Shown piece by piece: positions 1-62,100 of a stretch of 64,000 nucleotides of DNA (the stretch's first letter is position 1; each line of letters begins with the position of its first letter). The stretch covers positions 14,827,422-14,891,421 of the forward strand of contig JAJEKV010000033.1 of NCBI GenBank assembly GCA_021234155.1, given 5' to 3'. The position numbers were made by a program, and so were the translations under genes. The notes under the pieces are model-generated. The model was given only the letters and a program-made list of their open reading frames with translations, ran no database searches and was not told the origin of the DNA. The stretch comes from Isoetes taiwanensis (Eukaryota > Streptophyta > Lycopodiopsida > Isoetales > Isoetaceae).

Positions 1-564
1 TGATATTTTTTCTTCTATTATTGTCTAAATATATACAATAAAGTCTTTTTTTTTTCTTCGTCCTCTCACGATTCTAAATTGAGACACCAAGGCTTTTCTA
101 ATTTCCTTTGAGGTGAGTATTAAAAGAAGGCGCAGAATTTTGTTTCGTAAGCATGAGTTGGCGTGTTGCATTGATATGTAGAAGAAGAGTAATTGAAAAA
201 AAAACTAATAACGGGTGGTGCGCGTTCTTGCGCATAAATCTATTGATTCTATTGCGGTGAATTGAACTTAATTCCTTGCACTTATAAATGATGTTGCCTC
301 TTGTTGCATTTGGATAATTAATTTTTTTTCTAGGTGGCCCATTGATTCCTATAACTTTTAGTTTCGGATAGTCTCATTTTTTTCGACATGTTTTTTTTGC
401 ATTGGACATGACACTAAAAGAGGGGCATTAATGTATGTTTTGTGGTGACTTGCTCTAGAATTGTGCATGTACGTAGAAATTTTGCCCTAAGCCTAGATAA
501 CATCCAATTATAAACATAGCGATCTAAAAAAATATTCTAATATGGACCTTAGTGGCAACCATAA
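1..564 (+). repeat. Large inverted repeat, left arm, part 1
   Basis: It matches 56,233-56,812 in reverse complement, including tgatatttttcttctatt at the outer end and gcgatctaaaaaaatattct near the Helitron border. The repeat continues across the Helitron at 7451-7765. The left end is cut by the window, so the true outer boundary is unknown. I see no protein family in it. Confidence 0.88.
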
Positions 565-1290
565 TCTATATATAATAATAAAGCCGTTTTAGGATAGTTT
601 GTGCGCGATCTTGGCCGTTAATTTTATTGTGTGTGAAATCTTTTGTTGTAGGCCGTTTAATAATTAGTTATTATTTTGGTTTTCTAACTAGGTGAATGCA
701 TGCAGAAACAATGACCTATTTTCTTGCGAGTCTTTTCTTGGAGAAAACACTCGCCATGGCAGCATTATTCCAGCTCCGGCCTCTTCGTTGGTGATATCTC
801 CATCTCTTTTCTGTCCAATACGGGAGTATGCAGTCCGGTCAAGGCTAACAAGAGCAACAAGCCCAGGGGCATGAGCACAACGGATATCAAAGAAGCACAA
901 ACAGAATGGGATGTTGCTTCTCACAGATACGACATTCTATGGACAAATACTGGGAGGATGTGCAATTGCATGTCAGTTTGCAGTAGAAGAGGACTGTTCA
1001 TAGCCTTCCACAAGTGCAATCAACTGCCATTTGTGGGTTTAACATGTTTTGATTTAAGCAGCCTTACATTGTAAAGGTATGACTATTACCATCTGATAAC
1101 AGTTCTTATTTACGACAAGATTCGCTACGTTTCTTCTTTGTAGCATATATGTCCATTCTGTGATGTTCTCTTTGTGCCAATTACCACTGGATATCGTGAA
1201 GCTCATTCAAACTCTTTTTTTTTTCTATGCCTTGATTGTATATTTAGATAAGTTTACTGCCGATATTGTTGGTAATTTGGATGCTTGCAG

Positions 1291-1434
1291 GTAGTGGAAG
1301 CTCTCGATCCAAGTCATTATTGTTGTAATTATTGGATTGGAAATTCATGGGGGCCTTTTCAAGCTACAAATGGACATGAAAGCATTCCAGATTATTCGAG
1401 TATATATGACATGTTTCGCTCTTTCTTTGTCAAA
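1291..1434 (+). pseudogene. Captured exon of an unidentified gene (48 codons)
   Basis: A 144-bp open segment preceded by a good acceptor (gatgcttgcag) and followed by a consensus donor (gtaagt at 1435). It is in phase throughout and reads VVEALDPSHYCCNYWIGNSW... to ...FRSFFVK. I do not recognise the family. It sits inside the Helitron with introns retained, which is expected when Helitrons capture genomic DNA rather than cDNA. Further segments downstream (1694-2060, 2829-2880, 3431-3523, 3813-3905) may belong to the same gene. It is unlikely to be an intact gene because the intervening segments contain stops. Confidence 0.5.
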
Positions 1435-1693
1435 GTAAGTCAGAAGGAATTGTGGGCATTGCAGAGAAGGGACAAGATTGGAAGGATGCCTTCCAAGCTT
1501 TTGTACACACAGAGGGCTTTATAAGGAGATGGAATCCTTCGACCATTGAGTTATGTATGATCAAATAAGGGCCCCATTTATAGCGTTTATTATATCATTC
1601 TGGATCGTGAGCAAACCGGCCTGCTTCAACCTTGACTTCTTGTTTGTGGCTTAATTATGAGAAATTGATGGGACTCTTTTGCACATCTCGAAG

Positions 1694-2060
1694 AAAAGAA
1701 GTGTTTGGAAGATGGATTATCAGAAGCAAGCAGACTGACAGAATCAACTAGGAAGCACCTTAAACATGTAATTGTTCTATGTATTGTTCAGCAAGTCTTG
1801 CTCATCATATAGTCATGTGGGTTGTTACAGGTGCAATGTGAGCAGGAAATGACAAGATCTAATGCAGATTTGAGGGTATTAGGATTGAAACTACATTCAT
1901 AGGCTGAATCCGTCAACAATTTTTTGCTAAAGGCTTCTAAATCAGCTGAGGGGCTTGATAAACGCCTTGCCGGGATGCCCCGGAAATATGATATGTATCC
2001 TGAACTATTGGATAGCAGTAGTAGAGCACCAAGAAACAATCGATGCCTGTTTTCAGACAT
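1694..2060 (+). pseudogene. Captured exon fragments with a charged, helical reading
   Basis: Two open stretches are split by a likely intron ending ttgttacag at 1830. The first reads KKCLEDGLSEASRLTEST and the second QCEQEMTRSNADLRVLGLKL then, after one stop, AESVNNFLLKASKSAEGLDK. The composition (many E, K, S, L) suggests a helical or coiled-coil protein. One stop at about 1900 breaks the second stretch, so it is decayed or misread. I cannot assign a family. The position, between the 1291-1434 exon and the duplicated exon at 3431/3813, suggests one captured multi-exon gene, but this is inference. Confidence 0.35.
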
Positions 2061-2828
2061 TTGTTTCGAATTCTTGTGCAGTTTTATAAGCTAATAAAAG
2101 AATATATGTTACAAATCAATGGCAACTCTAAGACAACAATAAATGTGCAGTGGTAGGTTCTTGGCTTTCAAAATGCTGATTAAAATTGGTGGCTAAGGAT
2201 TTGATCTTTCTTAGGCATGCTTCAAAATAAAAGTTGCACATATGTTTTGTTAAGAAACAGGAATATAAATGGAGCAGACAAGGAGCAACTTACACAAGAT
2301 TTTATGGCTTCTTTTGTCATTTGAAATAGATGGATTTTGCCTTTTACTCATATTCCTAGGCATGGTCTGGTCTGCTCATAAGCAAGTAGAGTTATTCTAT
2401 CGCTTATGGTGCTATATATGGGAATATGATAGTGCAGGATTTAAATCGTTGAATTTTGTTATTCTATTTTTATCTCTTAGATCTTAGATGCAGCAGTTAT
2501 TTTATCCAGTTTGATTCCTTTCTCATTACGTGCAACCAAGATGGGGCTGCAGCAAATTGGGCTGATGCCTTTTTATTACCAATGGGAGGGGCGGGATGCA
2601 GTTATCTTAAATCCTGAAGGCAAATGCCTCTTCATTTTCTTTGTTCGCCCTAATGTAGCTTTCATATGCTAAATGTAGCCCAAAAAATGCTCTTCCTTAT
2701 TTTATGGGCAGATCTCACGGTAAGTCTCTTCTTTGCATCGGTTTTAAAAAATAGAACCTTGACTGAGTTAGGATTGGCTTGAGTGGAAGGAGCATATTAT
2801 TCTTGTCTAATCCAGCATTATTTTACAG

Positions 2829-2880
2829 GTTCTTCGAGAATATGACCAAATTTGGCAGAATGTTTTCGGAAGTACGAGAT
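2829..2880 (+). pseudogene. Possible captured exon
   Basis: After an acceptor-like ttttacag the reading VLREYDQIWQNVFGST is open. No clear donor was found, so the right border is uncertain. It lies in line with the other captured exons of the Helitron. Family unknown. Confidence 0.25.
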
Positions 2881-3430
2881 TTCTATAGAAGCTTACGCAA
2901 TACATTTGGACATTATATGGATCATCCTCATCCCCATGGCCGATGGTGCCACATATGGTATGTGGCATGAGGGAAGATAATGTTTTCACCAATGCCATGA
3001 TTGTATGGCCAATCGTGTATTTTTTTAGTTCTTTGGATGCCTCATGCTACACTGTAGTAGAGTTCATAATGGTCTTTTGAGCTTTCTCTATATGCTTTCA
3101 CAGGCCACATGCTAATCGATTGGAAATGTGTGGTATTGTATTATCAGTGGAGAATTAAATATGAAGCAGAGGGACTGGAAATAATGGACCTTTCAGATGT
3201 GTGCTCCAATCAGTTATGCTATTTCCCAGATGCGTGATATTGCACTTTTGTTTTCCTTCCAATAGATACAACATAGCCATGATTTTATGCACACAATGGA
3301 GAGGAGGGCTTAAACTATAAAAGATACCCATTTTGTTTCTTTCATGGTTCGATTTTGATAAGCCTCAAGCTGTACTTTAGAAGTCAGTCTGATATGTACA
3401 ACAAGGGAAGATGGCAATTTCATGGTGCAG

Positions 3431-3523
3431 GTTATGGAGGAAGGCCAAATATCGCATTGTCAAATCAATTTGCCTTATGGCTTTGCCAAGTTTTTACATG
3501 CCGCTTTTCGATCTGAGACAAAG
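3431..3523 (+). pseudogene. Captured exon, first of two tandem copies (31 codons)
   Basis: A 93-bp open segment is bounded by catggtgcag and gtataatc, a good acceptor and donor. It reads VMEEGQISHCQINLPYGFAK then FLHAAFRSETK. The length is a multiple of three, so inclusion of both copies would keep frame. I do not recognise the protein. The second copy at 3813-3905 differs at only a few residues (R for Q, W for S), so the segment was coding-like before duplication. Confidence 0.5.
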
Positions 3524-3812
3524 GTATAATCTTTGCCTAAATGGTTATATGCAAATAGCTTGATATGTCTTTTTCCGAATTGTGATACATAATGGCTTGT
3601 ACATACAAAGTTTATAGTTTCGTGATCAGAAAATTCAGGTCCAATAGATACATCATAGCCATGATTTTATGCGCACAATGGAGAGGAGGGCTTAAACTAT
3701 AAAAGATACCCATTTTTTTTCTTCCATGGTTCGATTTTGATAAGCCTCAAGCTGTACTTTAGAAGTCAGTCTGATATGTACAACAAGGGAAGATGGCAAT
3801 TTCATGGTGCAG

Positions 3813-3905
3813 GTTATGGAAGAAGGCCGAATATGGCATTGCCAAATTAATTTGCCTTATGGCTTTGCCAAGTTTTTACATGCCGCTTTTCGATCTGAGA
3901 CAAAG
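3813..3905 (+). pseudogene. Captured exon, second of two tandem copies (31 codons)
   Basis: The partner of the 3431-3523 exon has the same splice borders and length. It reads VMEEGRIWHCQINLPYGFAK then FLHAAFRSETK. It arose through the 382-bp tandem duplication. The open frame survives in both copies, while surrounding intronic sequence also matches, so this is a DNA-level duplication and not retroposition. Confidence 0.5.
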
Positions 3906-4768
3906 GTATAATCTTTGCCTAAATGGTTATATGCAAATAACCTGATATGTCTTTTTCCGAATCGTGATACATAATGGCTTGTACATACAAAGTGTATAGT
4001 TTCGTGATCAGAAAATGCAGGTAAAAAATCTTGAATTTGTGCAAAAGCATTGAAACTAGCTCCACTATCCTTATCCGCCCAACAGGTTTCCAGGATAACG
4101 AGAATAAGTTTTTTTCCAAATATGTCTGTACAGGCTGTAGTAGCTTCTAATGGTGTAGTAGCATCCCCTTGGTAATATCCATTGGTGAATATCCATTGGT
4201 GAAAGGACCATCCAAGACACTGGATCGTTGATTAAGCCTAGGCCGTTGACCAAGTGTATGGAATTCCCAAACTGCTTAATTTATTTCTTGATAAATGTGA
4301 AGCATATGTTTGTATATAGAAGCCTTCTTCATTGATATCATCAGCCGCCTTCATTTACATCATCGGTAAGTGAGAAGCAGGTAGAGAGCAAGTTCTGTTT
4401 GCAGATTCTCTGCCCTTGAAACTATAACTATAAAGGTATTTTTGCTCTCTCTCTTTTTTTTTTATCTATTACTCTTGAGTAAAAATGAACATATTTGCAA
4501 TGCTCTATTTTCCAAAGTAGTGTTATGTGACATTATTTGCGGCTGATGACATTCTACACAAGGCTTATGGATTTCTTTATCATCCTGTCCATTTGTTTCT
4601 CAGGCCATTTGTTTCTCATGCCATTCAGTTGTAGCATAGCAAATGGTATATCGTAATGGCACCATGCAGACATCAAGTCATAATTGGTCTGGAACTCATA
4701 TACTCATTTCATATCTCTTTTTCAGAGGACCCTTCTCCTGACCAGGAAATTGTATGCTACTTTAAGAT

Positions 4769-5574
4769 ATGACTGGTTTTTATTGTTCTAAAAAGATTCC
4801 TGGGCTGGCAGTGTTATTTGCCAACAAATTTCAGAATGGGAGGAATCTGCAGGAGGAGATTGACCTTGCCAGACTTTTGTTGGAAATCGCTCGGAATGAC
4901 GCATATCATTTTGTGCAGGAATGTAGAAAGGCAAAATGTCTTAAACTTGCAGGCAAGCGCAGTCACTTATACTTTTCAGCGGACATGATTCAATTGCAGT
5001 TCTGGGTGATCATCTTATAAAGCTTTTCTCTGACTGTAGAACCATTTGTGAAGCGAATCAGTCACTTTATAGAATTGCAAGAATTGCAGAGACAACTCCC
5101 TATACATGGGCTGCAATTATCTTGGCACATGTCAATATTGCACAAGGTTTCACCACTGAATTGTATTATGGAACGCGATAGTCATGTGTGAAAAATAATA
5201 CTCATAGTTCGCTTGCTATTCTCAAAGCATGCGCATTAATAAAAGAAATTTATCATGGAAGGATAATTCATAGTCAGATAATTCAAGATGGCTTCTACTG
5301 GATGTTTACTTGAGAAGCACCTGATTCACATGTATGCAACATGCTCAAGCCTGAGAGATTCATGTGAGGTCTTTGACAAATTGGTGAATCAAAATGTGGT
5401 AACATAGAATGTAAGCATCGCAGGTTACAGCTATTGTGGACAAGGTCATTTGGATTTTGAGTTCCTTGATAAGATCAAGTAGGATGGTATAGAACCTGAT
5501 ATAATTTCATGGAATTCAGTTATCTTGGGTTATTCGCAGCATAATGAATGGCTCAAGATACAATATCATACATG
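4769..5574 (+). pseudogene. PPR-protein gene fragment captured by the Helitron
   Basis: The translated + strand, followed across frame changes, gives PPR-like text: YHFVQECRKAKCLKLAGKR (about 4905), TPYTWAAIILAHVN (about 5097), SLAILKACALIKEIYHGRII (about 5211), HSQIIQDGF, EKHLIHMYATCSSLRDSCEV (about 5311), FDKLVNQNVV, and DGIEPDIISWNSVILGYSQH (about 5486). These are the helical repeats and W-N-S/W-N-V motifs of plant PLS-type PPR proteins, which bind organellar RNA. In-frame stops occur, for example after NQNVVT and after FLDKIK, and at least one frame shift lies near 5,020. No start, targeting peptide or C-terminal E/DYW region is present, so this is a dead internal fragment. Its place inside the Helitron marks it as captured host DNA. 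Confidence 0.8.
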
Positions 5575-5580
5575 ATTTTT

Positions 5581-5758
5581 ATTTGGTATTTGAAATTTCT
5601 TTACTGAAATATGTAGTGTCAATTATTCTCAAAGTTAAAGACAATTTAACTTTATTCATCTTTATTTGGTGCATCTTAATTTGAAATTTCTTTGATGTTG
5701 CTACATATAGTGTCAAATATTCTCAAAGTTAAAGACAATTTAATTTTATTCATCTTTA
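5581..5758 (+). repeat. Imperfect tandem pair of about 85-95 bp
   Basis: The segment 5581-5662 is repeated at 5664-5758, sharing atttggt, tgaaatttcttt, tagtgtcaa and ctcaaagttaaagacaattt. The second copy has a small insertion near its start. It lies just after the PPR fragment inside the Helitron. No coding potential is seen. Confidence 0.75.
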
Positions 5759-5759
5759 T

Positions 5760-7422
5760 GGGTTTTTATTCTAAGGTTGAACAGGAGCCATTGATTGTTA
5801 GAATATTCCTTCTATTGTGTCAAATCCAACATTTTGCCCAAAAATCAACATGCTACTTCCTATGGTCTTGATTGAACGTATGGGCTGAAAACAACATTTC
5901 CCAAATAAATATACAGTTTCTACAGAATTAATGGTCTCAAATCCATGTTTTTCTACAAAGTGCGGCTAAGACAAGAGGGCCAACTTATATACACGATTAC
6001 AGAAATGATCCAAAAATTCAATCAGGTCTGATTCGATTCGTCCGTATCCTCTGCTTGCCCCAAAGCTTGTCTATGGCAGAAAATGCTTTTGGGCATTTGC
6101 ATTCTCCCTGTGTGCATAGCCCATATCTGCTGCAGGAGCTTAGCAACCTACAATCCGCCATCCTTGAAGCAAGAAATTCATTCGCCTCCACTCAAACTGC
6201 GGCCACACATATCTGCGGCCAAGGATAAACCATATATTTTTGCCACCAAGAACCTGGGCTGGAGGAATTGAACCTCTGGGGCACACCGGCCTCTCTAGAA
6301 CCCCTAAAATAATGAAATAGAAATGAATTAGAGGCATCGTGTGCAGGTAAGGATTTGAAGCCCAAAAATTAAAACCGAGGAACTTGTTCAAGCATGGTCG
6401 TCCCTGCACTACACAACCCTTCATCATAGATCCCACCAAAGCCCAAAAACAGATCTCTAGCAGCAAACAACCCATCCTTCGCTGCCCCAATCTGCGACGA
6501 AGCATTCTCCCGATGATACTGGCATGCATAGAAGACCTGTCTGCCGACCAGATCTACCCATGTGTGCCCTCAAATGTTTCTATTCCATGTTATGCCCACA
6601 AAATAGCATAAAATTTATGCCCAAAAAAGTAATTTGACCTTCACCTGCAATTAAGCTCCTCAAACTTCGCAAAATATACGGTTTTGCATAGAATACGTCC
6701 CAAGAATCTTAGTCTCAACCATGCGAGAAAACCGTCTCGCAATATGAAACAAAGCAACTTCACACCACTTATCAAGTTATATAAAACATATGTAAAAGAG
6801 CTAGGGAGTTACATATAATAAGATTTATAAAGGTATAATTAGTCCTTTAGAGCATTGAACATTTACGAGAAAAATATTATATAAAATGCTCTAAGTTAGT
6901 ACACACCTGTGTATTATTAACATATGCTAGAATGATACTAAAAAATTGGAACTCATACCCTGATAAAATGTAAAGGGAAAAAGGGAGCTTTGCATAACAT
7001 CGTCATCCACAAGCGAATATTCATCAACCATTATGTTAGTTTGTTAACACCATTGCGATTGATCCTAGAAATTTGAGGCACTAGCCACTGGCAATGCTTG
7101 CTCTAATCTGATAGTGGAGTTGGCTCCAAATTTTTTTTTGGGCATTGACTCTCTAAAAGTACATTCCTTGCCCTCATATCCGTGGTTAGGGCAAGGTGAA
7201 TAAAACATTGTAAAACCTTGAGAGAATGCAATGTAGCTACTCATTTACTTCTCATTCCATGGATCCTTTCATGCATTTAATACATTAGAAATGCTAAACT
7301 TGAGCTTATCGACACTTTGACATAATCCAGGCTGATAAACATTTGCACAAATTCCAACATTAAAATTCCTTAAACTTTTAACACCAATCCAACATTTGCC
7401 TTCAATTTATGCCCGACGAAAA
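5760..7422. other. Helitron 3' interior, no recognised gene
   Basis: Opposing open stretches at 6083-6611 include a 129-codon minus-strand frame, but no family is recognisable and there are no matching splice sites. Most of 6,620-7,420 is AT-rich non-coding sequence leading to the terminal hairpin. Confidence 0.5.
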
Positions 7423-7450
7423 GCCCAGCAACGCTGGGCACTTTTTCTAG
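7423..7450 (+). other. Helitron 3' terminal hairpin and CTAG end
   Basis: The arms GCCCAGC (7423-7429) and GCTGGGC (7433-7439) are perfectly complementary around an AAC loop. A flanking A-run at 7419-7422 can pair with the T-run at 7442-7446 across a small bulge. CTAG at 7447-7450 is the CTRR terminus, and the next base is the T of the target. In Helitrons this structure acts as the rolling-circle termination signal; that role is known for the family, not shown here. Confidence 0.9.
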
Positions 7451-7765
7451 TAATATATAAATGTCAACACATTTGTGTTGAATTTGCTCTATTTTTTTCA
7501 GCAGACCAAACTTGGACAAAATTCCTTAAGAATGATTCCATTCTTTGAAAGAAGTTACAATGCCTGATAAATTAAATTGCAAAAAAAAAAAAAAAACCCA
7601 TCAAATTACCTTGGAAGATACTTAACGGATTGTTGAGACAACCTGCAATCCATGGTATTATTCTTTCCTGAACTCCAAAGAACTAAAATGCATTCTCTTT
7701 AGATAGATAAACTATATAATATCAATCAGTTGAAAAGCATGGAGAACTGTTTAAAACAAAGCACA
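7451..7765 (+). repeat. Large inverted repeat, left arm, part 2
   Basis: It resumes the repeat after the Helitron and matches 55,923-56,232 in reverse complement, for example tttagatagataaactata and the long A-run followed by cccatcaaattaccttg. Together with 1-564 it gives a continuous match of about 880 bp once the Helitron is removed. Homology to the other arm stops abruptly at about 7,765. Confidence 0.85.
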
Positions 7766-7767
7766 CA

Positions 7768-7995
7768 ATATATACAATAAAGTCGTTTTTTTTTTTGTCG
7801 TTCTTATTTTTAGTCCCTCGCTTTTTTTTGTCGTTCTTATTTTTCGATCCCTCTCGCGATTCTAAATTGAGACACCAAGGCTTTTCTAATTTCCTTTGAG
7901 GTGAGTATTAAAAGAAGGCGAGAATTTTGTTTCGTAAGCATGAGTTGACGTGTTGCATTGATATGTAGAAGAAGAGTAATTGAAAAAAAATAATT
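7768..7995 (+). repeat. Second copy of the window's first 200 bp
   Basis: The run atatacaataaagtc, gattctaaattgagacacca and gtagaagaagagtaattgaa repeats positions 30-205 in the same orientation. It has an extra duplicated tttttgtcgttcttattttt at about 7,790-7,840. It begins exactly where homology to the right arm breaks, so it marks a rearrangement point in the left arm. Confidence 0.8.
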
Positions 7996-37332: not shown

Positions 37333-39720
37333 TTTTATGTTATGTACATACACATATGTCAACAAATTTTCTTAAAAATACGAGAGCAAACTTGTACCTT
37401 GTGTTGGTGCTTGTGCCTAGTAAAAAGATGGAAATATGGAATAGGCTGAATAAGTTCATTTTAGCATGCACATACAACTACATAAGGTAATTTTTACTCT
37501 TATTGACACTTTATTTAGGAACATGTTGGTGGTACTCTCAAATGAGGTATTTGGAAAAGCAGGCATATGAAGGCATGGATGGATGCGCTAGAGATATAAG
37601 GTTATTTTTCTAGGAAGGACACACCAAGTGCTTGGGGAAATATAGGACATATGGCGTACATTAATTGCATGAATATGCATAGTTAAAATGATGTGCTGGT
37701 CTCGATAAGATTTGGACCTTGAGGAAATGAAGGCGGCCTAAATTGGAAGAAAAACTTAGGGGTTTGATTCCCTCTGGCAAAATCCTTGAGACTTGGAGAA
37801 TGAGGGTGAGATTTAACGAATCAAGGTGCTGCCCGAGGGGCAGCCGAAATTGATGACCCAAGATCCTCTTGGGTTTTGCTGGAGCCATCAGGAAGGATGT
37901 GTTTTAACTCATCTGGTAGGTGCAGCATTTCAAAAGTTATTTAGAGCTTTTACTAAAACCAGCGAGAATGGGTAGTTACATTGAGTTTGAAGCCTTCTAG
38001 AATGAATAGCTTTCACGAGAAGAAGAAGAGCCGATGCATAAGAGCATTTTGCATGAAAATTTTGTGAGATTTAAGGATCTAAGTGAGCAGGGCCGAGAGA
38101 AAATGAGGATGGCGTCTTAGTGCCTTAGCAAATATGGTTTTGCAACATGTTCGTACTCCTAGAATAAGTGGATTGACAAGTTTGGCTTCAATGAAAAAGC
38201 TTGAGATGGCTAAAGCTAAACAGTTCATACATTGTAGATTCGAGTCTTGAAGCATTCTCCATGGAGAATGTAACAAAAGGACATAGATGCAGTGCAGAAA
38301 GGGAGTTCTTACGGTAGTGAGCGATGGCATCATGCCGGGGAAAGCAACATGGAGGCATTATCATGTTCACTGTAACCTACAATTAGCTAAGATGTAGAAT
38401 CAGCCATTGACCAACTTCAGGTATGTTCTTATGACTGTAGTTCTAATTTTTAAAACATGTCATAATAATTACTTGGCCGGCTTATGAACACGAGATTGTT
38501 ACACTACCAAGATATGGGCTGCGGCACTAAAATAATAGGAAGATAAGTTGGCCACTATTCTTAGAGTAAGACATATGCGGCATAATCTATTAGCACATGA
38601 GAGCGAGGTTCTTTTTCTAATTCTTTTCTAATTTTAGAATCTTTGTGAGATAGCATAATATATGTTAGGTTTAGAGCACATAAATAGATGGCCTTGTTTC
38701 CTAAGTTTATATCACGATTCGGGGAGATTGTATGCAGTCAAGACAATGGGCGTGACACTAAAATAAAAGGGAATAATTTCTATTCTTAGAGTAAAAGGCT
38801 TTTGTTTGTCATCATACGACGGTTGGATACAACAAATCTGGTGGTTAATTATGGGACACATGTTTAAGAGCTGCTCATGTTGTGATCTCTGTTTAGAACA
38901 AAAGTAATTTATGGATTTCTACTATATCCTAAATAATGATTGGAAGGATCACATATCTCTATAAGATGTCCTAGAAGTGCATCGATGGTAATAAGGATGT
39001 AATTTCTTCAGTGACAAAGTCTTTTTGGTTTGATGCTTGTTGTCTTAATATGCTTTTTACTAATCAAAGAGCAAAGATTTTACAATGGGTGAAGAGGCGA
39101 GAAAGAGCCCGAGAATCACCAAAGTACCTTTTAGCCCATGATACGTGCAGGGATTCGCTAATGTATACATGTGGTTGGTACTTGAGGCAAAACTGGTATT
39201 CTGCTCCCATTGTGCCTTCCTTTTCTTTGTTATGGTGTGTTTTAGCAAAAGAATTTGCATGTATCAACGAGAAAAGAAGATGTGGAATGGATTCAGTTCA
39301 AGATTGTTTTCTTACACATATGGTGTACTTTATGGCTACAAGTACGCTGCTGAGGGAGTTGCAATTAGATTATCTTGTACTATCATAAAACTTTGAAAGT
39401 AAACTATGTTCTGAGTATACAAAAACAATTTTTTTTGCTATTGATTACAACAATATTGGAACCATTGAATTATGCGGAGATGCACCCAGCGGTACTTTTG
39501 GCTTCAAAATTGCGTCTACTTACGTAGCAATTTCTTAGCCTAGAAGAGAGCTAAGTAATGATTTATAGATTACCTATATCACATTGTATCTTGCTTAAGC
39601 AATCTTGAGATAATGATACAAAGCTTTTTATACATGTGAATATATGTGAATGCATATGGGTTTTCGAGGGTTTTCGAGGAAAAACACAATAACGAGGTTT
39701 TTCTGAGACTCATATAGATT
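37333..39720 (+). repeat. 2.39-kb direct repeat, copy 1
   Basis: It matches 40,862-43,245 along its entire length in the same order, for example ctcctagaataa, catggatgg, ctattcttagagtaa, gcatcgatggtaataaggat and ctgagactcatat. Copies differ chiefly by short indels and a few GC-rich strings. Open frames at 39,011-39,396 encode text such as MWLVLEAKLVFCSHCAFLFF, partly kept in copy 2. No family is recognised. It does not start TG or end CA, and no primer-binding site follows, so an LTR role is not supported. Confidence 0.9.
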
Positions 39721-40861
39721 TTAAAAAATAGGTTATGGCTTATGTTCTTAAATAAGTTCGATCATTGGGGAAGCGTGATTGATATTGGGCTATGGAACAC
39801 CATGTCTGAGATAATTGATAAAGATGTACCTAGATATGGAGAAAAATATAAAATCTTGGTCAGTGAAATTAAATTGGTCCATGGGCAAAGATAAAATCCA
39901 GGTGGCTTTAGCGAAAGTACTATATAATGTAACTTGATGCCATGTGGGCAAGTTGGCATGTAATGTAGCATGATGGCATGCGGGGTGTATGCTAGGCTTT
40001 TGGATAAACATGCAAACAAGGTTTTTCTTACGGAAAATAAGTGATACTCTAAGGCCAAAAGTCAAAAGTGACTTTTTGACCATAGTAAGATGTCCCATCT
40101 ATGACTAACAGGTCATTGTGTATGGAATGATACAAGGCCTCTTGAGGGGATTGGTGATGTAGCTAGAGGCGCCTAGTAGGGGTTGTTGCTGAACTAGTGG
40201 TCTCGGGTTTTAGATATTTCATTTCATTGGTTTTACCCGATTAATGACATCTTAGCGGTAGTATAATGGAGCAAAGGCTTGATATATTGAATAATATTAA
40301 TGTAAATGATAAATTATGGTTTAGGGATCATGATGGTGCTCAGTGAGTACAATTTGGAATAGTTTATGCCATTTGTATGCGGAACAAGGACCTTGGAAAT
40401 GCAGTTGGATATGGTGCCAAAGATTGCGGAGACGGTGATGCAATAAGGTATGACAAAGCTTCAAAATCGGTATGACAAACTTTGCATGTCAAATTCTATT
40501 TGATAGAAAGATAATGGATGATTGTAATTTGAACTTTCCAAAATCAGTCACTACGAACAAATGATCTTTGGCATCTTACTTAGCCATGCTTTGCTATAAT
40601 GTTCCAAAAATTATGATAGCATGCCATTTGACCATGCTATGCTATCTTATAAAATGACTAATAAAGGATCAATAAGTATGATTTCAACATTGGTAAAATA
40701 TTTGAATACATCTATGGTTTTGGGCCTAAAATAAACTATAGGGTTATGGCGGACCCCTCTTGTAACAAATAGAGTGCGCCACCCTATGAATTATAGTATA
40801 ATAACCGATTTTTCTAAAAAAGAAAAATGGGGGTCTAAGAATAATCCTGATTAGGAGTAGG
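39721..40861. other. Spacer between the 2.39-kb repeats
   Basis: Opposing short frames (39,762-40,098, minus) have no motif. I see no primer-binding site, polypurine tract or protein. Confidence 0.4.
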
Positions 40862-43245
40862 GTTTTATGTTATGTACATGTACATATGTCAGCGAGTTTT
40901 CTTAAAAATGCGAGCAAACTTGTGCCTTGTGTTGGTGCTTGTACTTCTAGTAAAAAGATGGAAATATAATAAGTGAACCAAGTTCATTTTAGCATGCACA
41001 TACAACTACATAGATAATTTTTTACTCTTATTGACACATTATTTAGAACATGTTGGTGGTACTCTCAAATGGTATTTGGAAAAACGACATATGAAGAACA
41101 TGGATGGATCTAGCTAGAGATATAAGGTTATTTTTCTAGGAAGGACTACCAAGTGCTTGGGAAATAACGGTTATATGGCATGCATAATTGCCATGAATAT
41201 GCATAGTTAAAAATGATGTGCTGGTCTCGATGAATTTGGACCTTTGGAAATGTGAAGGCGCTAGCCCTAAGTGGAAGGAAAAACTTAGGGTTTGATTCCC
41301 TCGGCAAAAATCATGAGACTTGGAGAATCGAGGTGAGATTTAACGAATCAAAGATGGCACGCGGGGCAGCCCGAAATTGATGACAGATCCTCTTGGGTTT
41401 TGCTAAGAGCCATCGGAAGGATGTGTTTTAACTCATCACGGTAGGTCTCGCGGCTGACTCAAAAAGTTATTTAGAGCTTTTACTAAAACCAACGGAGGGA
41501 ATGGAGTAGAAGTTACATTTGAGTTTGGAAAACTTCTGAATGGATAGCTCACGAGAAGAAGAAGAAGAGCGATGCATAAGGATTTAGGCGATTGGGTCAT
41601 TTTGCATGAAAATTTTTGTGAGATTTAAGGATCTACCAAGTGAACCGGGCTGAAAATATGAGATGGCGGTACCATGCCTTAGCAAAATATGGTTTACAGC
41701 ATGTTCATGCTCCTAGAATAAATTCGTTGACAAGTTTAGCTTCAATGAAAAAGCTTGAGATGGCTAAAGCTAGAAGCGGTTCATACATTGTAGATTGCGA
41801 TCTTGAAGCATTCTCCATGGAGAGATAAGTAACAAGGACATAGATGCAGTAGAAGGAGTTCTTACGGTGAGTGAGCGATGGCATCATGCGAGGAAAGCAA
41901 CATGGAGCGATATCATGTTCACAGAAACACAATTAGGCGAAGATGTAGAATCAGCCATTGACCAACCGGGTATGTTCTTATGACTGTAGTTCTAATTTTA
42001 AAACATGTCATAATAATTAGCGGCTGACTTATGAACTTTGAGATTGTTACACTGCAAGATATGGGCTGCTGACACTAAAATAATAGGAATGGTGTCTATT
42101 CTTAGAGTAAGACATATGCAGCATAATCTATTAGCACATGAGCGAGGTTCTTTTTTCACAATTCTTTTCTAATTTTAGAATCTTTGTGAGATAGCATAAT
42201 ATATGTTAGGTTGGAAGCTTACATAAATAGATGGCCTTGTTTCCTAAGTTTATATACATATTAGGGAGATTGTGTACGGTGGGGCAATGGGCTGTGACGC
42301 ACCTAAAATAAAAGGAATCAATTTCTATTCTTAGAGTAAGGCACATTTGCATTAAATCACATCACGGCGGTTGGATACAACAAATCACAATTGGTTAATT
42401 ATGGGACTTTATGTTAGAGCTTTTGCTCGTATTTGTGATCTCTGTTTAAGAACAAAGTAATTTATGGTTCTACTATATCCTAAATAATGATTGGAAGGAT
42501 CACATATCTCTATAAGATGTCCTAGAAGTGCATCGATGGTAATAAGGATGTATTTCTTGAGTGACAGTCTTTTGGTTTGATGCTTGTTGTCTTAATAATA
42601 GCTTTTTACTAATCCAAGAGCAAAGGGTACAATGGGTGAAGAGGCGAAGAGCCGGAGATCGCAAAGTACCTTTGGCCTCACCAAGGATACTTGCTAATGT
42701 ATACATGGTTGGCTCTTGGTCACGTGGTGATACGCTCCCATTGTGCCTTCCTTTCTTTGTTATGGTGTGTTTTAGCAAAAATTTTGCATGTATCAAGCAA
42801 TGAGAAAGACAACGGAATGGATTCAATTCAAAGGCATTTTCTTACACATATGGTGTACTTTGGCTACAAAGGCTGCTGAGGGAGTTGCAATTGATTATCT
42901 TGTACTATCATAAAACTTTGAAGTAAACTATGTTCTAGGTATACAAAACAATTTTTTGCTATTGCGATATAACAATATTACTTGAGACCATTGAATTATG
43001 CGGAGATACATAAAAAACAGTATACTTTTGGCTTCAAAATTCGTCTGCTACGTAGCAATTTCTTAGCCTAGAAGAGAGCTAAAGTAATGATTTATAAGAT
43101 TACCTATATCACATTGTATCTTGCTTAAGCAATCTTGAGATAATGATACAAAGCTTTTAGCACATGTGAATATATGTGAAGATGCATATGGGTTTTCGGG
43201 GTTTTCGAGGAAAACACAATAACGAGGTTTTCTGAGACTCATATG
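40862..43245 (+). repeat. 2.39-kb direct repeat, copy 2
   Basis: The partner of 37,333-39,720 (2,384 against 2,388 bp), offset about 3,527 bp. It is separated by a 1.14-kb spacer. It ends just before the CpG-dense cluster at 43,281. It holds a shortened version of the open frame at 42,561-42,879. Confidence 0.9.
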
Positions 43246-43280
43246 GAATACAAAAAAACACAATAGGAGAAGGTCATTTA

Positions 43281-46722: not shown

Positions 46723-46929
46723 CTACGACCCCGTGTCGTGGCTACCCGGGGAAAGGAGCTCATGGCCATCCTCACATACCTGCTTGGCCAGGAACCAACA
46801 TCTCTTTTTGCCATATTTTATGGCCCTCAATATTATGTCGATCTCGGTGCGCTGACTCCTGTATTTGTCCATTTGTTTGTATCACATTAAAAAGCTTCGT
46901 TGGCGTTCAACTCCCGGACACGCGAATCT

Positions 46930-47195
46930 AGCAGCTTGCGCCGATGCTTCTTGAAGGGTCGATGAAGAACACTATCTTCTATCATTATTTAGGGTCACTA
47001 TTGTTCTCAAAAATCACTGGCGTGATCTTATGCAACATCGGCTGTGGATCGCGGCCTCTCTCCTCTCGTGGCTTCTCAGTGCTCGTCCCCTTCCTTTTTC
47101 TATTTCAGCGTCTCATAGCTGGCCATAAGCGAACCATGGTTCAAAACAAGAAGCGTATGGCCTCCAAGGGTAAAAAATGGAGAGAAATAGCGTGA
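46930..47195 (+). CDS. Hypothetical open frame shared by both 4.8-kb copies
   Basis: The + frame reads MLLEGSMKNTIFYHYLGSLL and then hydrophobic text; copy 2 (59,355-59,618) reads MEGSMKNTIFYRDIYGVAIV. In copy 2 the opposite strand is also open (59,340-59,561, MASYEIAEIEKEGDEQLRSY), charged and more like a soluble protein. Minus text continues past it as ELNANAAFNAYKQM across a shift. The coding strand is therefore unresolved. No family is recognised. Confidence 0.25.
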
Positions 47196-50100
47196 GAATG
47201 TGGCTTCATTTTGTTGCTACATTTTCATGGCGGCATAGTTTTTGTGAGGGTTAATTCGGTTCCCTCTTCCCACTATTTTTCTGTTTCCCTGTTCACATCT
47301 ATTTTGTCGTCTATACATGTGTCGATTATTATTTTGTTTTGATTACATTGGTAGGAGATGCATCTTCGGTTTACTTGAGGCGTTGTAGGCAGAAGTCGGG
47401 GAATTTATACATAAGCAACAAAGCTTTATTGCATGATATGCATTTTCGTCCCGACTTCTACGTTTGATGCATGATGGTGGAATTCAATTATTTTTCTTGA
47501 GATAATCGATGTTTTCTTAGATCCGACTTCTATATGAGGAGTTGGTGATATATTTGATGAGAAATATGCACCTCAAACTAGAAGTATAAGGTATTATATC
47601 TTACTTAAAATTACACTTACATGTTACTTACTTAGTTTTCTACTATGGAATAATTCTTGCTAGAACCAAAGCTCTTTCAATACACATGATTCTTTTCAAT
47701 AATGCTTTTTGTTGAATGTGAAAATATTTCAAGGATATTTGCATGTTTAATACATCCTATTTGGTTACATGTTGCTTTTAGGGGCGTTAAATTGTATAAT
47801 GACATGCTAACTTATCTTCGCGAGAAAGAAAGCACACCTAATTATCTTTGGTTCATGATGATTTTAATGGATCGATCTTGGTTGTATTGGAAGGTAACAG
47901 CATTACTTGAGCATTAATGACGCAATTCTATCGATTTGTCTCAATTCTTCTCATTAGTATTTATAGGCTAATAGTTTCCTAGTTGTCCATCACACCAATT
48001 TATCTATTATTTTAGTTCTTAGTTTGTTCTACTTGAAAATATATGCTTGGCGGTAGTTACGCATTACAATGTATCGATACACTTGCATTTGATTCTTTGA
48101 TTATTTTCGGTGCTTATATGGCTTTCACTTTTTATTGTAATGCATCACATCTTTGCAAGCTGTGTTATTTTTGATGAGTTCTTATACATTGATTCCACTT
48201 AATCATTCTTTCCGAATCGTCATTTTTATTGATTCTTGACATCCCTGCGCGCCAGTGCGGGTGCCTTATGTATCGAGTTTGAGGCGTTTGAATCCATCTG
48301 GAATGCATCTGCAAGAAATGCGGTTGCAATGTCTATTCAAAATGGTCTCATTGCGTGTGCTTATTTTTGATTTGTTTGCATGAATGACACGATCATGTTC
48401 TACATGTGAGGTTGACCCCTATTATTTTAATCAGGTAGTAGATGCTAGGTAGTAGATGTTGCTTTCCTCGTTCTTAGTTCATATTCATCCTTTGATAGAA
48501 ACCAAAGCGGTACTTGATGAACTATCAAGAAAAGAGCAATTTATAAGGAAGAGCAATTAAGTTGAGGTTCTTGCTTGCTCATGTTTATCACAAAAGCTAT
48601 GTTTGAGGTAAATGGTTTATTTTCTTTGTTGCTATTTCTTATGGGTACTCTGTTTCCAAATCTTACTTACATTCATGGAAGAGATGTTCCTAAAGCGTGA
48701 TTTCACAACAATTTTCTTGACTACAATCCATCCTAGAATGGTAAGTTGACAAGCATGTTTGAAGCTTCTACCAAGATGATATGCATTTCTTATATCTTTG
48801 ATAATTGAGCTTTTCAACTATAATTTGTTTACATACATCTACATCGATTATGAAGCTATGGCTATGCTCAAAATCCACGTGTGCTTCAAATCCGATCCGG
48901 AACCACGTGACCCGATACAAGCCAGATCTCTCAAAGCTTTACCCCGGGCGGTCTGCTTCACGCTTACTGCCACGCGACTCCTACATTCCAATTGTAGTAT
49001 CAATATGGCATGACAACAATTCCAACAATAATTCTCAGGGAATGACCAATCATACAAACTGGTTTCTAATTTGCTTAGAAGGGTTTACGACCCTCTTGTG
49101 TTTTGTGGTATGAACAAGAGGCCATGGCTTTTTATTAAAGATCCAATGAGCGATAAAACACAGGTAATAGCCATGGAAAACTCCATGAAGAAAGTAGCTA
49201 CATTTTCAAATGGTACATTTTCAAATGAATCTAAATATGCGGTGCCAGCTGGGGATTTATGAAACTATGTTAGTTGAGCGGCCCAAGAAGCCAAAAGGCT
49301 GCAAATTCTTTTTGTATGGATTTCAATAAACACTATCCAAGTATTTCATACTTTGGTAAATGAAATGCTTCATATATTGCTCATCAAGTTGCTAAATGCG
49401 TTTTCAAATCTTGCTTCTCTGGTAAGTAAAGCAAAAGGAAAAGAAAAGAAAGCGTGTTAAAAGAAATACTTGAAGCGAATTTCACAAAATTTACTAAAGG
49501 AATATATAAAGAGAGAATAGTGAATAAAATAAAGAAATTGGCGCCTTGTACTTTTGTCTTTCAAAACCACAAACTAAAAAAGAAAAAGAAAAAAAAATTC
49601 ACAAAAGATTCCAAAAAGTAATAAAGCAAAATTTTTGAAATCGCTTGTTTTGGTATGTTATATGGCAATTTTGTATGCTTAATGGTTCATATGTCATTCA
49701 TGTTTTGAATTATTATTTTGACCACAAAAATAAGATCTCTCATAACACACCAAAACAAAGATTAGATGTGATCATAAAAGCCGGAGGGAATAATAGCAAA
49801 AGACAAAAAGGGACAGCAGGGGAACTACGAAGCAGGAAGAAATCAACTTCTACATCCCTCTTGCTGTAGCGTACCAATCGAGGAGGGATGGGCTAGGGGT
49901 CGAAAGGTGTAGCATGGGCGAGAGAATGGCCAAGACAATTGAAATAGCCCGGATGAAACAGCGAGAGGCCAGCACCTCCAAACCTTGTTAGTACTTGCTT
50001 TGGATCCGCGTTGCCTGAGACATTCAAATGCACCAATTTCGTCAGCGACAAAGATGACCTAGAAACATATTCTTGGATCAATCTAGCGGTAGCCAAGAAA

Positions 50101-50382
50101 AGCGAAGAATTTGACACGAGAGGGGTGGGTGATCTTGCTCCCATCAATACAACAAGTTTTTGTGGGAATTATAACCACATGTGTCTTGATCAATTTTGAC
50201 TCTCCAGTGTCTGGTAGTATCTAGCTGAACGTGGAAAGAATAAACAACTTGTATGAATAAAACAATAAATTTTGTTATTTCATTTGTATCTCTCTTCATT
50301 TGTTGTTTCACTTTCATAAAAGTACATAATAATTTGAGAACCATCTAAGGTTCAAGAGTTTCTTAAATTTAGAGCAATCAGA

Positions 50383-50620
50383 GCCTTAGTGCCTCGAGGA
50401 GCACGCAGCCTTCAATGGGCTTATTAAACTTCGGCGCCCGTTTGTCTCTTACATGCTGCAAATCTTGCTCACGAAGGGATCTTTCGATAAAGGGGTGTAG
50501 CGTCAGACTATTCAAGAGCCCATCAAAATGAAGCCCAGTTCACAAGATACATGATCACTCTTACAAGCAAGATTTCCAAGGAGTGCGGGTGCATTCATCT
50601 CTTTGTGCAATAGGAAAGCC
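50383..50620 (+). repeat. Internal repeat of the 4.8-kb unit, copy 1
   Basis: It resembles 51,001-51,230: gccttagtg.ctcgag, ccttc(a/c)atgggctta, tttgtctctt, aatcttgct and gaagggatct. The similarity is partial. The same pair occurs in the second 4.8-kb copy at about 62,845 and 63,455, so it predates the larger duplication. Confidence 0.6.
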
Positions 50621-51000
50621 TTGAGCTAAGTTGTATTGATCCTAAGAAGGCAGTCACAAGAACATGTGAAACCGGCGTGACGAGGAGGGAGTGCTTGGCT
50701 GAAATGTAGCCATTTAGGTTTCGACCATTGTGCTTTGTAGTGAGAACAATGATTCCAACTATAGTGCCCAAGGTAAGTCGATGCCATTGAGATATTACCT
50801 TTGGAGCACATTGAGACATGGAGGTGCATATGGGAACCGTGGTCTTGCAACCATGCCTCTCTCTAAATAATGGAGCCTAGAAAGTGACTACACCACATTG
50901 ATCGAGAGGCAGAGAAAGAAAAGGTAAGAATTCCGATTGCTTTCAACTTGAGATACTTAAGATTGTAGATGGCTCGTTCTAGAATTGAGGCAATGGTGAC

Positions 51001-51230
51001 CTTAGTGGCTCGAGAACATGCTGCCTTCCATGGGCTTACGAACTCTGACACCTTTGTCTCTTCGTGTTGCGAATCTTGCTGTGAAGGGATCTTCTAGCGG
51101 CGAGGGCCAAACCATGGCCGGACCATTCAAAGCCACGTGGAAGGGAGTTCTAAGATACACTGATCCACTCTTGCTGCTTGCATGCATATTCAAGTTCAAT
51201 GACATCACGTCCCTCGGACATCATGACCTT
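51001..51230 (+). repeat. Internal repeat of the 4.8-kb unit, copy 2
   Basis: The partner of 50,383-50,620, offset about 618 bp. The + frame 51,018-51,293 (MLPSMGLRTLTPLSLRVANL) and the opposite minus frame 51,002-51,208 are both open, so neither is credible alone. Confidence 0.6.
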
Positions 51231-51529
51231 CTTTGCAATGGGTACCATGGTTTCCACCATAGATTCCAAAGGGAAAAAGCGACGGATGTCTAGATATCAT
51301 TGACCTAGTTCTAAGGTTATCGCCGGACCCACTATGATTCTTTTCTCTTCTACGCCTGCGGAACCATTGTTTTCGGATACAAGATTTTATGATATTTCAC
51401 ACAATTATGGCATTTAGAATTGTGTTAAATTTTTCTTTGAAATGCAATAATAAATTGTGTGTGAAGTTGGCTGGCGATACATACATAGTTGTTCTTTTAG
51501 TGGATGCATATGTGTACAAACAACTAAAA

Positions 51530-55922: not shown

Positions 55923-56812
55923 TGTTTTAAACTGATTCTCATGCTTTTGGCCCAGTTGATATTATATAGTTTATCTATCTAAAAGAGGCATTTTAGTTCT
56001 TTGGGTTAGGGAAGAAGAATAATACCATGGATTGCGGGTTGTCTCAACAATCCGGATTCGTATCTTCAAGGTAATTTGATGGGTTTTTTTTTTTTTTTTT
56101 TTGTGCAATTTAATTTATCGGGCAGTGCCCTTCTTTCAAAAGAATGGAATCATTCTTAGGAATTTTGTCAAGTTTAGTGCAAAGAAAAAATAGAGCAAAT
56201 TCAGCACAAATGTGTTGACATTTATACTATTATTATGGTTTTGCCACTAAGGTCCATATTAGAATATTTTTTTAGATCGCTATGTTTTGCATAGTGGATG
56301 GTATCTAGGCTTAGGGCAAAATTTCTCACGTACATGCACAATTCTAGAGCAAGTCACCACAAAACATACATTAATGCCCCTCTTTTGAGTGAAAATTAAA
56401 CTGTCCAGTACCAAAAAACATGTCGAGAAAAAATGGGGACTATCGAAACTAAAAGTTATATAGGAATCAATAGGCCACACAAGAAAAATTAATTATCAAA
56501 TGCAACAAGAGGCAACATCATTTATAAGTGCAAGAGATTAAGTTCAATTCACATATAGAGCAAATATTTATGCAGGCAATGCAGAGACACCAGTCTAGTT
56601 TTCAATTACTCTTCTTCTACATATATCAGTACAACCGCGTCAACTCGTAACTACGAAACAAAATTCTGCTTCTTTTAATACTCACCTCAAAGGAAATTAG
56701 AAAAGCCTTGGTGTCTCAATTTAGAATCCTTGAGGAGCCGAAAAATAAGAGCGACAAAAACAAGAAGACTTTGGCCAGCATATATTTAGACAATAATAGA
56801 AGAAAAATATCA
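55923..56812 (-). repeat. Large inverted repeat, right arm, block I
   Basis: The reverse complement matches 1-564 joined to 7451-7765 and is uninterrupted by the Helitron. Anchors include ccttggtgtctcaatttaga, gtgttgacatttatact and ccatggattgcgggttgtct. Confidence 0.9.
56220..56245 (-). other. Empty Helitron target site in the inverted paralogous arm
   Basis: Read on the minus strand, this segment joins ...GGCAAAACCATAA directly to TAATAGTATAAATGTC.... These are the left flank (551-564) and right flank (from 7451) of the Helitron without the element. The junction falls between 56,232 and 56,233. It represents the pre-insertion state of the repeat and places the Helitron ends to the base. Confidence 0.9.
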
Positions 56813-59156: not shown

Positions 59157-62100
59157 AGGTCATGGCCATCCTCACATACCAGCAATGATTCAACATCTCT
59201 TTTTTTTGCCATATTTTATGGCCCACCAGTATTATGTCTGATCACCGAGACACCGACTCCATAGCCATTTGTCCATTTGTTTGTATGCGTTAAAAGCTGC
59301 GTTGGCGTTCAGCTCAGGACACATTAGCAGATCTAAGCTTCACCTTGATGCTTCTTGGAAGGGTCGATGAAGAACACTATCTTCTATCGCGATATTTACG
59401 GGGTCGCTATTGTTCTCAAAATCTTCTTTGTGATGTATGCAACATCGGCTCCTTGGTTGCGGCCTCTCCTCCTCTCCGTAGCTTCTCAATTGCTCGTCCC
59501 CTTCCTTTTCTATTTCAGCGATCTCATAGCTGGCCATGGCGAAACCATGGTTCAAAACCATAAGCCGAGCAATAGTTCAAAACAAGAAGAGCGGCCATGG
59601 CAGAACCTCAAGGAGTAAAAAATGGAGAAATAGCGAGAATGTGAAAGCCGTTTGTTGCTACATTTTCATCCGAAAGTAGTCATAGTTTTTTTTGGCGGGG
59701 TTAATTCCACAGGTTTCCCCTCTTCCACTATTTTTCTGTGCCGTTTCACATCTATTTTGTGTGTCTATCATGTCGATTATTATTTTGTTTTACCCCGGTA
59801 CATTGGTAAGAGATGCATCTTCGGTTTTCTTGAGGCTTGTAGGCAAGTCGGGGGTATACATAAGCAACAGAAGAAGCTTTATTGCATGATATGCATTTTC
59901 GTCACGAACTTCTCGTTTGATGCATGATAATTGAGATTCAATTATTTTCTTGAGATAATCGGTGTTTTTCTTCTATGTCGAGTTGGTGATATATTTTGAT
60001 GAAATATATCTCAAACCTAAGAATAATAAGGTGAGATTATATACTTACTTAGGTACTTTTATGTTTACTTACTTGGTTTCTATGGAATAATTCTTGCTAG
60101 AACCAAGCTCTTTCAATACACATGATTCTTTCAATAATGCTTTTTTTGTTGAATGTGAAAATATTTCAAGGATGTTGCCATGTTTGTCTATCTATTTGGT
60201 TACATGTTGCTTTTGGGGCATTAAATTGTGTAATGACATGCTAACTTATCTTTGCCGAAAGCACTAATTATCTTTGAGGTTCCATGATGATTTTAATGGA
60301 TCGATCTTGGTTGTATTGGAAGGTACTTGACATTATGAGCATTAATGACACGGAGCAATTTATCGATTTGTCTCAATTCTTCCCATTAGTATTTATAGGC
60401 TAATAGTTTCCTAGTTGTCCATCACGCAATTTTATCTATTTTAGTTCTTACGTTTGTTCTACTTGAAAAATATATGTCTTGTGATAGTTCACATTACAAT
60501 GTATTAATGCACTTGCATTTTGATTCTTTGATTATTTTAGAGTGCTTATATATGGCTTCACTTTTTATTGTAATGCATCACATCTTTGCAAGCTGTATTT
60601 ATTTTTGATGAGTTCTTATCTGTTGATTCCACTTAATCCATTCTTTCCAAATCGTCATTTTATTGATTCTTGACATCCCTGCATGTCAGTCACGGGTGCC
60701 TTATGTATGCGAGTTTGAGACGTTTTGAATCCATCTGGATAAATACGCAAAAATCCGGTTGCAATGTCTATTCAAAAATAGTCTCATTGCGATGTGCTTA
60801 TTTTTGATTTGTTTGCATGAATGACGATCATATTTCTACATGTGAGGGGTTGAGAAGGCCCTAATGGTATTTTTAATCCGGGTAGTAGATCTCTTTGCTT
60901 TCCTCATTCTTAGTTTCATATTCATCCTTTTGATAGAAACCAAAGCGATTGCCATTGAACATCAAGAAAAGAGCATTTATAAGAAGAGCAATTAGAAGTT
61001 CGGGTTCTTGCTTGCTCATGTTCCATCACAAAAGAAAGCTATATGTTTGGGGTAAATTGTTTATTTTCTTTGTTTGCTATTTCTTATGGAGTACTCTGTT
61101 TCCAAATCTTACTTACTTGATCTATGGAAGATGTTCCTAAGCTGTACAATTTCACAACCAATTTTTCTTGACTACAATCCATCCTAGAATGGTAAGTTGA
61201 CAAAAGCATGTTTGAAACTACCAAGATGATATGCATTTCTTATATCTTTGCTGATGAGTGAGCTTTTCAACTATAAAATTTGTTTACATACATCTACGCG
61301 CCGATTATGAAGCTATGGCTATATAATCCTGTGCTTCCAAATCGATCGGCCACGGCTGACCCGACCACAACCCGATCTCTCAAAGCTTTACCGGCGAGAT
61401 GCGCCCGGTACACTTTGCCGCGACCTCCCTGTTCCAGTATTAATTATCAATATGGCATGACAACAATTCCAACAATAATTCTCCAAGGACAGCCAATCAT
61501 ACAAAGCCCGTTTCTAATAATTTCTTAGAAGGGTTTTAGACCCTCTTGTGTTTTGTGAGGTATGAACAAGAATATGGCTTTTGTCTTGAAAGATCAGTGA
61601 GAGCATTAAAAACTTTGAGTGTAATAAGCCATATAAAGCGCTCGCCAGTAGCATTTTTCAAATGGGTGCGCATTTTTTTCAAATGGATCCTAAATGTGCG
61701 TGCCAGCGGGAATTTAAAAGAAACTATGTTTGTTGAAACTGGCCCAAAAATAAAATTTCAAATTCTTTTTAGCATGGATTTCAATAAAGCAGCATCAAGA
61801 GTATTTCATACTTTGGTAAATGAAATGCTTCATATATTGCTCATCAAGTTGCTAAATCGTTTTCAAATATTTGCTTCTCTAGTAAGTAAAACAAAAGGAA
61901 AGAAAAGCGTGTTAAAAGAAATACTTGAGAGGCAATTTCACAAATTTACTAAAAAGGAATATACTTAAAAGAAGAGAATGAGTGAATAAAATAAAGGAAA
62001 TTGAAATACATGCTTGTACTTTGTCTTTCAAACCACAAACTAAAAAGAAAAAACCTAATTTCTAAGATTCCAAAAAAGTAATAAAGCAAAATTTTTGAAA

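Follow-up and report, generated by a model that had tools for sequence, protein, structure and literature searches.

A complete non-autonomous Helitron in Isoetes taiwanensis with borders set by paralogous empty sites, and a second Helitron at the same base

Helitron borders are difficult to prove because these elements make no target duplication. The question raised by the locus described here is whether both ends of such an element can be fixed to the base within a single genome, and what else has used the same target. The locus lies in a 64,000-nucleotide stretch of the Isoetes taiwanensis genome (the window, G000:C1038:14827422-14891421), and the element in question, element A, occupies positions 565-7450. 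Coordinates without a contig label are window positions, 1-64,000, and the assembly searched comprises 1,658,258,908 bases in 1,110 contigs. Element A is confirmed as a complete non-autonomous Helitron, and other copies of its host sequence contain a different Helitron, element B, at the same base. We consider it very probable that element A was moved in trans and that A and B are two independent insertions into one preferred target.

Borders of element A and the second Helitron

The features on which the borders depend are the following.

1..564, plus strand: left host flank of element A, part of a repeated host sequence (BLAST, genome search)
565..7450, plus strand: element A, complete non-autonomous Helitron, 6,886 bp; both borders set by empty sites, with A on the 5' side and T on the 3' side
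565..678, plus strand: conserved 5' terminal stretch of element A, beginning TCTATATATAATAATAAAGCCGTTTT; up to about 114 bp common to other members, 82-89%
7094..7450, plus strand: 3' terminal stretch of element A, common to a subset of members; query 6530-6886 matches elsewhere at 75-90%
7423..7439, plus strand: 3' hairpin GCCCAGC-AAC-GCTGGGC, 7-bp stem and 3-base loop; the flanking A-run and T-run can extend the stem
7447..7450, plus strand: CTAG 3' terminus of element A, which fits CTRR
7451..7758, plus strand: right host flank, same host copy as the left flank (BLAST, genome search)
55923..56812, minus strand: paralogous host copy with the vacant site, junction 56,233/56,232 (sequence, BLAST, genome search)

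The 5' border reads GGCAACCATAA(564)|(565)TCTATATATAATAATAAAGCCG and the 3' border GCCCAGCAACGCTGGGCACTTTTTCTAG(7450)|(7451)TAATATATAAATG. The TC at 565-566 matches the Helitron 5' terminus, the hairpin ends 7 bases before CTAG in agreement with the Helitron 3' palindrome, and none of 200 shuffled versions of the 3' tail folds as well as the tail itself (z = -3.8). The two termini are not inverted copies of each other, as judged by eye and without a dedicated test. TAA adjoins element A at both ends; this is not a target duplication, because the empty sites already read TAATAA (CATAATAATA).

The flanks belong to a repeated host sequence, for which a 931-bp query over an empty copy returned 45 matched rows (40 of 222 candidates scored), all of them on contigs C1038, C1050 and C720 and in both orientations. 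In a self-BLAST of the window, 1-575 aligns with 56812-56222 at 83.5% and 7451-7758 with 56232-55923 at 86%, and the uninterrupted junction GGCAAAACCATAATAATAGTATAAATGTC is the reverse complement of about 56,217-56,245. The joined flanks of element A align without a break to 17/17 fetched paralogous junctions, which were picked for matches crossing the junction and are not a random sample, and 11 of them agree letter for letter over the stretch shown. Genome-wide, the 26-base empty junction is present at 47 places with at most 3 mismatches (26 exact, one with a single mismatch and the others with 2-3; the reversed control gave 0), some of these being more distant relatives on further contigs. 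Exact matches to the occupied 5' junction number only 3, namely the window and two copies of element B, B1 and B2 (24 further places have 3 mismatches, against a reversed control of 4), and the occupied 3' junction is exact at the same 3 places only (reversed control 0). Dozens of paralogous empty sites within one genome can thus pin Helitron borders to a single base, and element A is an ordinary kind of element that is unusually well proved.

Of the empty copies compared, the one at 56 kb has diverged furthest (84.8% over the left flank vs 92.2-97.1% for the others), and therefore the better empty-site evidence lies outside the window; since the other copies are closer, the insertion of element A can be dated past a split far more recent than the separation of the two arms. 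A preliminary description of the window had placed the borders at 565 and 7450 with TC, hairpin plus CTAG and an A^T target, and these coordinates are exact, sequence and empty sites being in agreement. The vacant junction that it had located in the paralogue at 56,220-56,245 reads uninterrupted on the minus strand, and the alignment of the flanks to the reverse complement of the 56-kb copy, which it had suggested as a check, gave the two arms cited above with the junction unbroken. A target duplication, which would have spoken against its borders, is absent from the empty sites. Its view that element A was inserted after the arms of an inverted paralogue had separated holds as far as the later insertion is concerned, but the arrangement is not a simple two-arm inverted duplication: the supposed arm is one of at least 47 repeat copies in both orientations. 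Element B could not be seen in that description.

The host rows at C1050:6620012 and C1050:6632170 stop matching the query at the base where the window copy also stops. Both C1050 copies contain element B, a Helitron of 3,814 bp running TCTATATATAGTAATAAAAGC...GCCCAGCAATGCTGGGCACTTTTTCTAG. Its flanks are CATAA and TAATATATAAATG, as for element A, and it carries an N-terminal piece of acetyl-CoA synthetase (PF16177, 29.8 bits, cut-off 27). B1 and B2 agree at 95% over 3.8 kb. In B2 (L074 + L094, C1050:6632757-6636551) the CTAG end falls at the same base, while the hairpin region is altered; it reads AAAAGCCCAAAGAATCTTGGGGCTTTT, which is unlike B1 and still palindromic. Elements A and B have only the last 45 bp in common by BLAST, and their 5' ends differ within.

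Terminal family and candidate transposase partner

The 28-base tail of element A occurs at 1,014 + 1,045 = 2,059 places genome-wide and the 26-base head at 202 + 200 = 402 places, both with at most 2 mismatches and both with a reversed control of 0. We checked the 24 heads with at most 1 mismatch on contigs up to C712. In 18 cases an exact same-strand tail lies no more than 12 kb downstream, at distances of 3.2-11.2 kb (expected by chance: about 0.007 per head), whereas of the remaining six, two have an exact tail at 21 and 33 kb and four have none. The genome search with both termini proposed in the preliminary description thus yields many elements sharing both. Five members were compared (element A, C1083, B on C1050, C101 and C601); what they have in common amounts to no more than about 115 bp at the 5' end and to 33-180 bp at the 3' end. 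The 5' end of B starts TCTATATATA too, yet BLAST does not find it. One further element, on C1044, shares more with element A, namely the part derived from a PPR gene and the 3' 690 bp, at 82-90%. A family with shared termini and unrelated interiors is shown by the comparisons. The 11.2-kb member at C101:63441-74669 (L106 + L107) contains the same 98-aa frame twice, 3,033 bp apart, which suggests an internal duplication.

Head-to-tail tandem arrays were considered for this family and rejected. Among 173 places with at most 2 mismatches to the CTAG|head junction, of which the best 100 were examined, CTAG|TCTATATATA is exact at only 3, and most of the listed one-mismatch junctions have CTAG|TATATATATA instead, apparently ordinary target DNA. 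In a different family, two RepHel loci (L008 3941-3965 on C1107, and L025 on the reverse strand at about 922-940) have hairpin and CTAG followed directly by TCTATATATAATAAAG or TCTAATATAATAAAG, the arrangement of a head-to-tail Helitron junction.

All 16 frames of at least 70 aa in element A were scanned against Pfam, and none gave a Rep or helicase match; the longest frames of 12 RepHel loci likewise found no tblastn match in element A or in four other elements. This bears out the earlier statement that the 6.9 kb hold no helicase. The long head-tail pairs on C101 (11.2 kb) and C601 (7.8 kb) gave no RepHel match either. By analogy with established Helitron biology, a RepHel made elsewhere would act in trans on the 5' end that members share and on the 3' hairpin with CTAG; one strand would be copied by the rolling-circle route and joined between the A and T of the target, and imprecise termination may be the way in which members pick up pieces of host genes. 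The target of element A was A^T followed by TATATAAA.

In a PF14214 search (best 150 of 1,813 candidates scored) RepHel genes proved abundant, many with long open frames. We sampled 50 loci from these 150: 12 loci of 6.6-7.3 kb, 20 stretches of 2.6 kb and 18 stretches of 1.3 kb, the 2.6- and 1.3-kb stretches lying downstream of Rep domains. Thirteen of the 50 share the hairpin TGCCCAGCAACGCTGGGCA with a different last stretch, of the [CT][AG]TTACTAG type. The autonomous partner expected in the preliminary description is therefore plausible as regards the abundance of RepHel genes, but a locus with the exact tail was not among the 50. One alternative, which we regard as possible though doubtful, is that element A was moved by the RepHel family ending TGCCCAGCAACGCTGGGCAC[CT][AG]TTACTAG, with the same hairpin, rather than by a RepHel whose tail is identical. 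The ends at the 13 loci are 2-5 mismatches from the 28-base tail of element A, and 14 right flanks of elements of this type are likewise AT-rich; a comparison of the 5' 200 bases of element A with the DNA upstream of two such loci, on the other hand, gave nothing at L054 and one 11-base chance match at L055. Either the RepHels sharing the hairpin act in trans or the true partner lies outside the sample. This genome contains several RepHel families side by side, distinguished by the type of their 3' hairpins (GCCCGGC, TGCCCGGC, GGCCGCCC and AGGGCCCGGCC), as seen at L010, L012, L014, L023, L026, L027, L031 and L033.

Probably two independent insertions at one base

The host sequences allow the histories of A and B to be compared. 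B1 and B2 have changes in common near the junction, two bases in the left flank and one in the right, that are absent from the A host and from 18/18 empty copies. The A host is nearest to empty copies (97.1% left, 98.7% right), as opposed to 95.3% over the left flank to each B host. What fits best is that A and B are two independent insertions and that the B-occupied copy was duplicated later: element B, of the same terminal family, would have entered another host copy at this base, and that copy then gave rise to B1 and B2.

The target may explain in part how one base could be used twice. An A precedes and a T follows the element in 22/22 members for which both flanks were read. C1046 was left out of this set, since its 5' match starts at query base 9 and the fetched left piece lacks the start; C1046 and L002 (C1044) provided a right flank only and were used in a position matrix only. 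With A and B excluded, 20/20 elements have A or T at 6 or more of the 7 bases from +6 to +12, as opposed to 18% of the 10,332 A^T sites in the window; TATAA is found within +1..+14 in 10/20 (background 2.3%; binomial p 5e-12). The site used by element A is A^TAATATATAAATG. One host copy (921 bp) has 188 oriented A^T sites, 13 of them with TATAA within +1..+14, and four of these 13 are within 10 bases of the used site. Reuse of the same base would accordingly have a chance of about 1 in 188 without a preference and of about 1 in 26 with it (0.5/13, a rough estimate). One repeat recording two different Helitrons at a single base is a natural illustration of narrow target choice.

The left flank directly before TC ends in TCTA or CTATA in 12/20 members (2.2% of background A^T sites), which is either a target preference or a 5' end growing by repeats. 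In such members an empty site is required to place the 5' border; TCTA/CTATA does not occur at the window copy.

Several observations speak against the reading of A and B as independent insertions moved in trans into a preferred target. Two alignment columns unite A with both B copies vs most empty copies, with 3-4 of the 18 empty copies also carrying the A/B states; the flank trees are weakly supported, and gene conversion between host copies could blur the ancestry. A gapless position matrix of the target, tried and rejected as weak, ranks the used site only 11th-14th of 184-189 host A^T sites when built from right flanks of the family alone, and 1st-4th only once flanks of a related family join it. 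Finally, the CACTTTTTCTAG tail was found at 0/50 sampled RepHel loci, where the stretches are short and absence is not implied.

A single ancestral Helitron insertion, common to the A and B hosts, with the interior exchanged later by gene conversion or recombination through the like ends, would account for the same base, the same orientation and the same tail family, and it would avoid the chance of about 1 in 188 of hitting the same oriented A^T in the 921-bp host copy. We consider it improbable, as the A host is without the flank changes of the B hosts and is nearer to empty copies than to them, and the short stretch common to A and B offers little homology for exchange. There is also little likelihood, in our judgement, that Helitrons exchange their cargo in place at this base, as at a docking site. 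On that reading the ends date from an early insertion, and later arrivals from the same terminal family replaced the interior by way of the common ends; one locus would then display different cargo across paralogues. That the empty copies are excision products and not never-occupied sites is very hard to believe: passages on maize describe somatic Helitron excision, footprint-free events included (PMC10095026; PMC2267711), but 47 empty junctions stand against 3 occupied ones, the 17 aligned junctions contain no footprint, and an unoccupied ancestor is far simpler. The other breaks in host copies (11 fetched stretches) revealed no element end of element A's family and hence no further insertion to count.

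Cargo of element A and comparison with known Helitrons

The interior of element A contains the following features.

3258..4022, plus strand: 382-bp unit in two tandem copies, 96% alike (self-comparison)
3857..4231, minus strand: captured phosphate-induced protein 1 (PHI-1/EXORDIUM-like) gene fragment (PF04674, E 3.7e-9, 36.8 bits, cut-off 25)
4745..5560, plus strand: captured broken PPR gene fragment; tblastn with the 732-aa frame of L003 gives 69-84% identity in three pieces

The PHI-1 frame is the single frame of element A above a Pfam cut-off. A DNA search with this fragment found ten places at 79-81% in a cluster on C1055 (3.10-3.60 Mb), which is its likely source. The 732-aa frame of L003 (C1059) is PPR_2 (E 2.8e-109) and is open to the end of the fetched stretch; the PPR region of element A has 88% DNA identity to L003 over 974 columns; L003 may be the actual donor.

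It is instructive to compare element A with other Helitrons, as they appear in passages of the papers cited. The gene-capturing HelA-type Helitrons of maize (Dong et al. 2011, PMC3288121; Du et al. 2008, PMC2267711) resemble it in the order TC...hairpin...CTAG, in the A^T target, in conserved ends around unrelated gene-fragment interiors and in the use of vacant sites as proof. They differ in their end sequences, in that the vacant sites of element A are paralogous repeats of one genome, and in that the maize case consists of two adjacent head-to-tail elements, whereas here two elements occupy one base in paralogues. Non-autonomous Helitrons of rice and maize share the 5' TCT, the 3' CTAGT, the preceding A and an A+T-rich 3' flank (Sweredoski et al. 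2008, PMC2575219); those of rice contain few gene fragments, while A and B, both elements examined for gene content, carry them.

A downstream AT-rich target preference is itself not new. Barley Helitrons likewise insert at A-T, and the A-rich signal that accompanies their target lies about 8-10 bp downstream and is confined to the 3' side; AAA is favoured there from 8 bp past A-T onwards (PMC5738225), while here it is TATAA or ATAA-like within +1..+14 (20 sites). Helraiser/Helibat of bats has the 3' hairpin terminator, the CTAG end, the AT target and an AT-rich preference that is strongest on the 3' side, but Helraiser is autonomous, was reconstructed and has been assayed in cells, and element A is without a detectable transposase (PMC4778049). 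In Isoetes taiwanensis, a lycophyte, the family represents Helitrons that capture genes and resemble those of flowering plants in their asymmetric target preference. The word Helitron is absent from the searched passages of the Isoetes taiwanensis genome paper (PMC8566536), and the papers matched by a full-text search for Isoetes plus Helitron name Isoetes only once each.

A few further observations concern the host repeat and the rest of the window. For the repeated host sequence, a scan of seven long frames of the window yielded no Pfam hit at E 0.01. Within the left flank, a 161-bp segment (43-203) recurs in the same orientation past the right flank, at 7830-7990 (94%), and a similar second piece follows the host copies C1050:5921938 and C1038:15234976. 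Two direct repeats are also present in the window: 37333-39728 vs 40863-43257 (2.4 kb, 85% identical) and 46757-51434 vs 59157-63894 (about 4.9 kb, 82% identical), beyond the latter of which 51491-51526 and 63965-64000 are an exact match of 36 bases.

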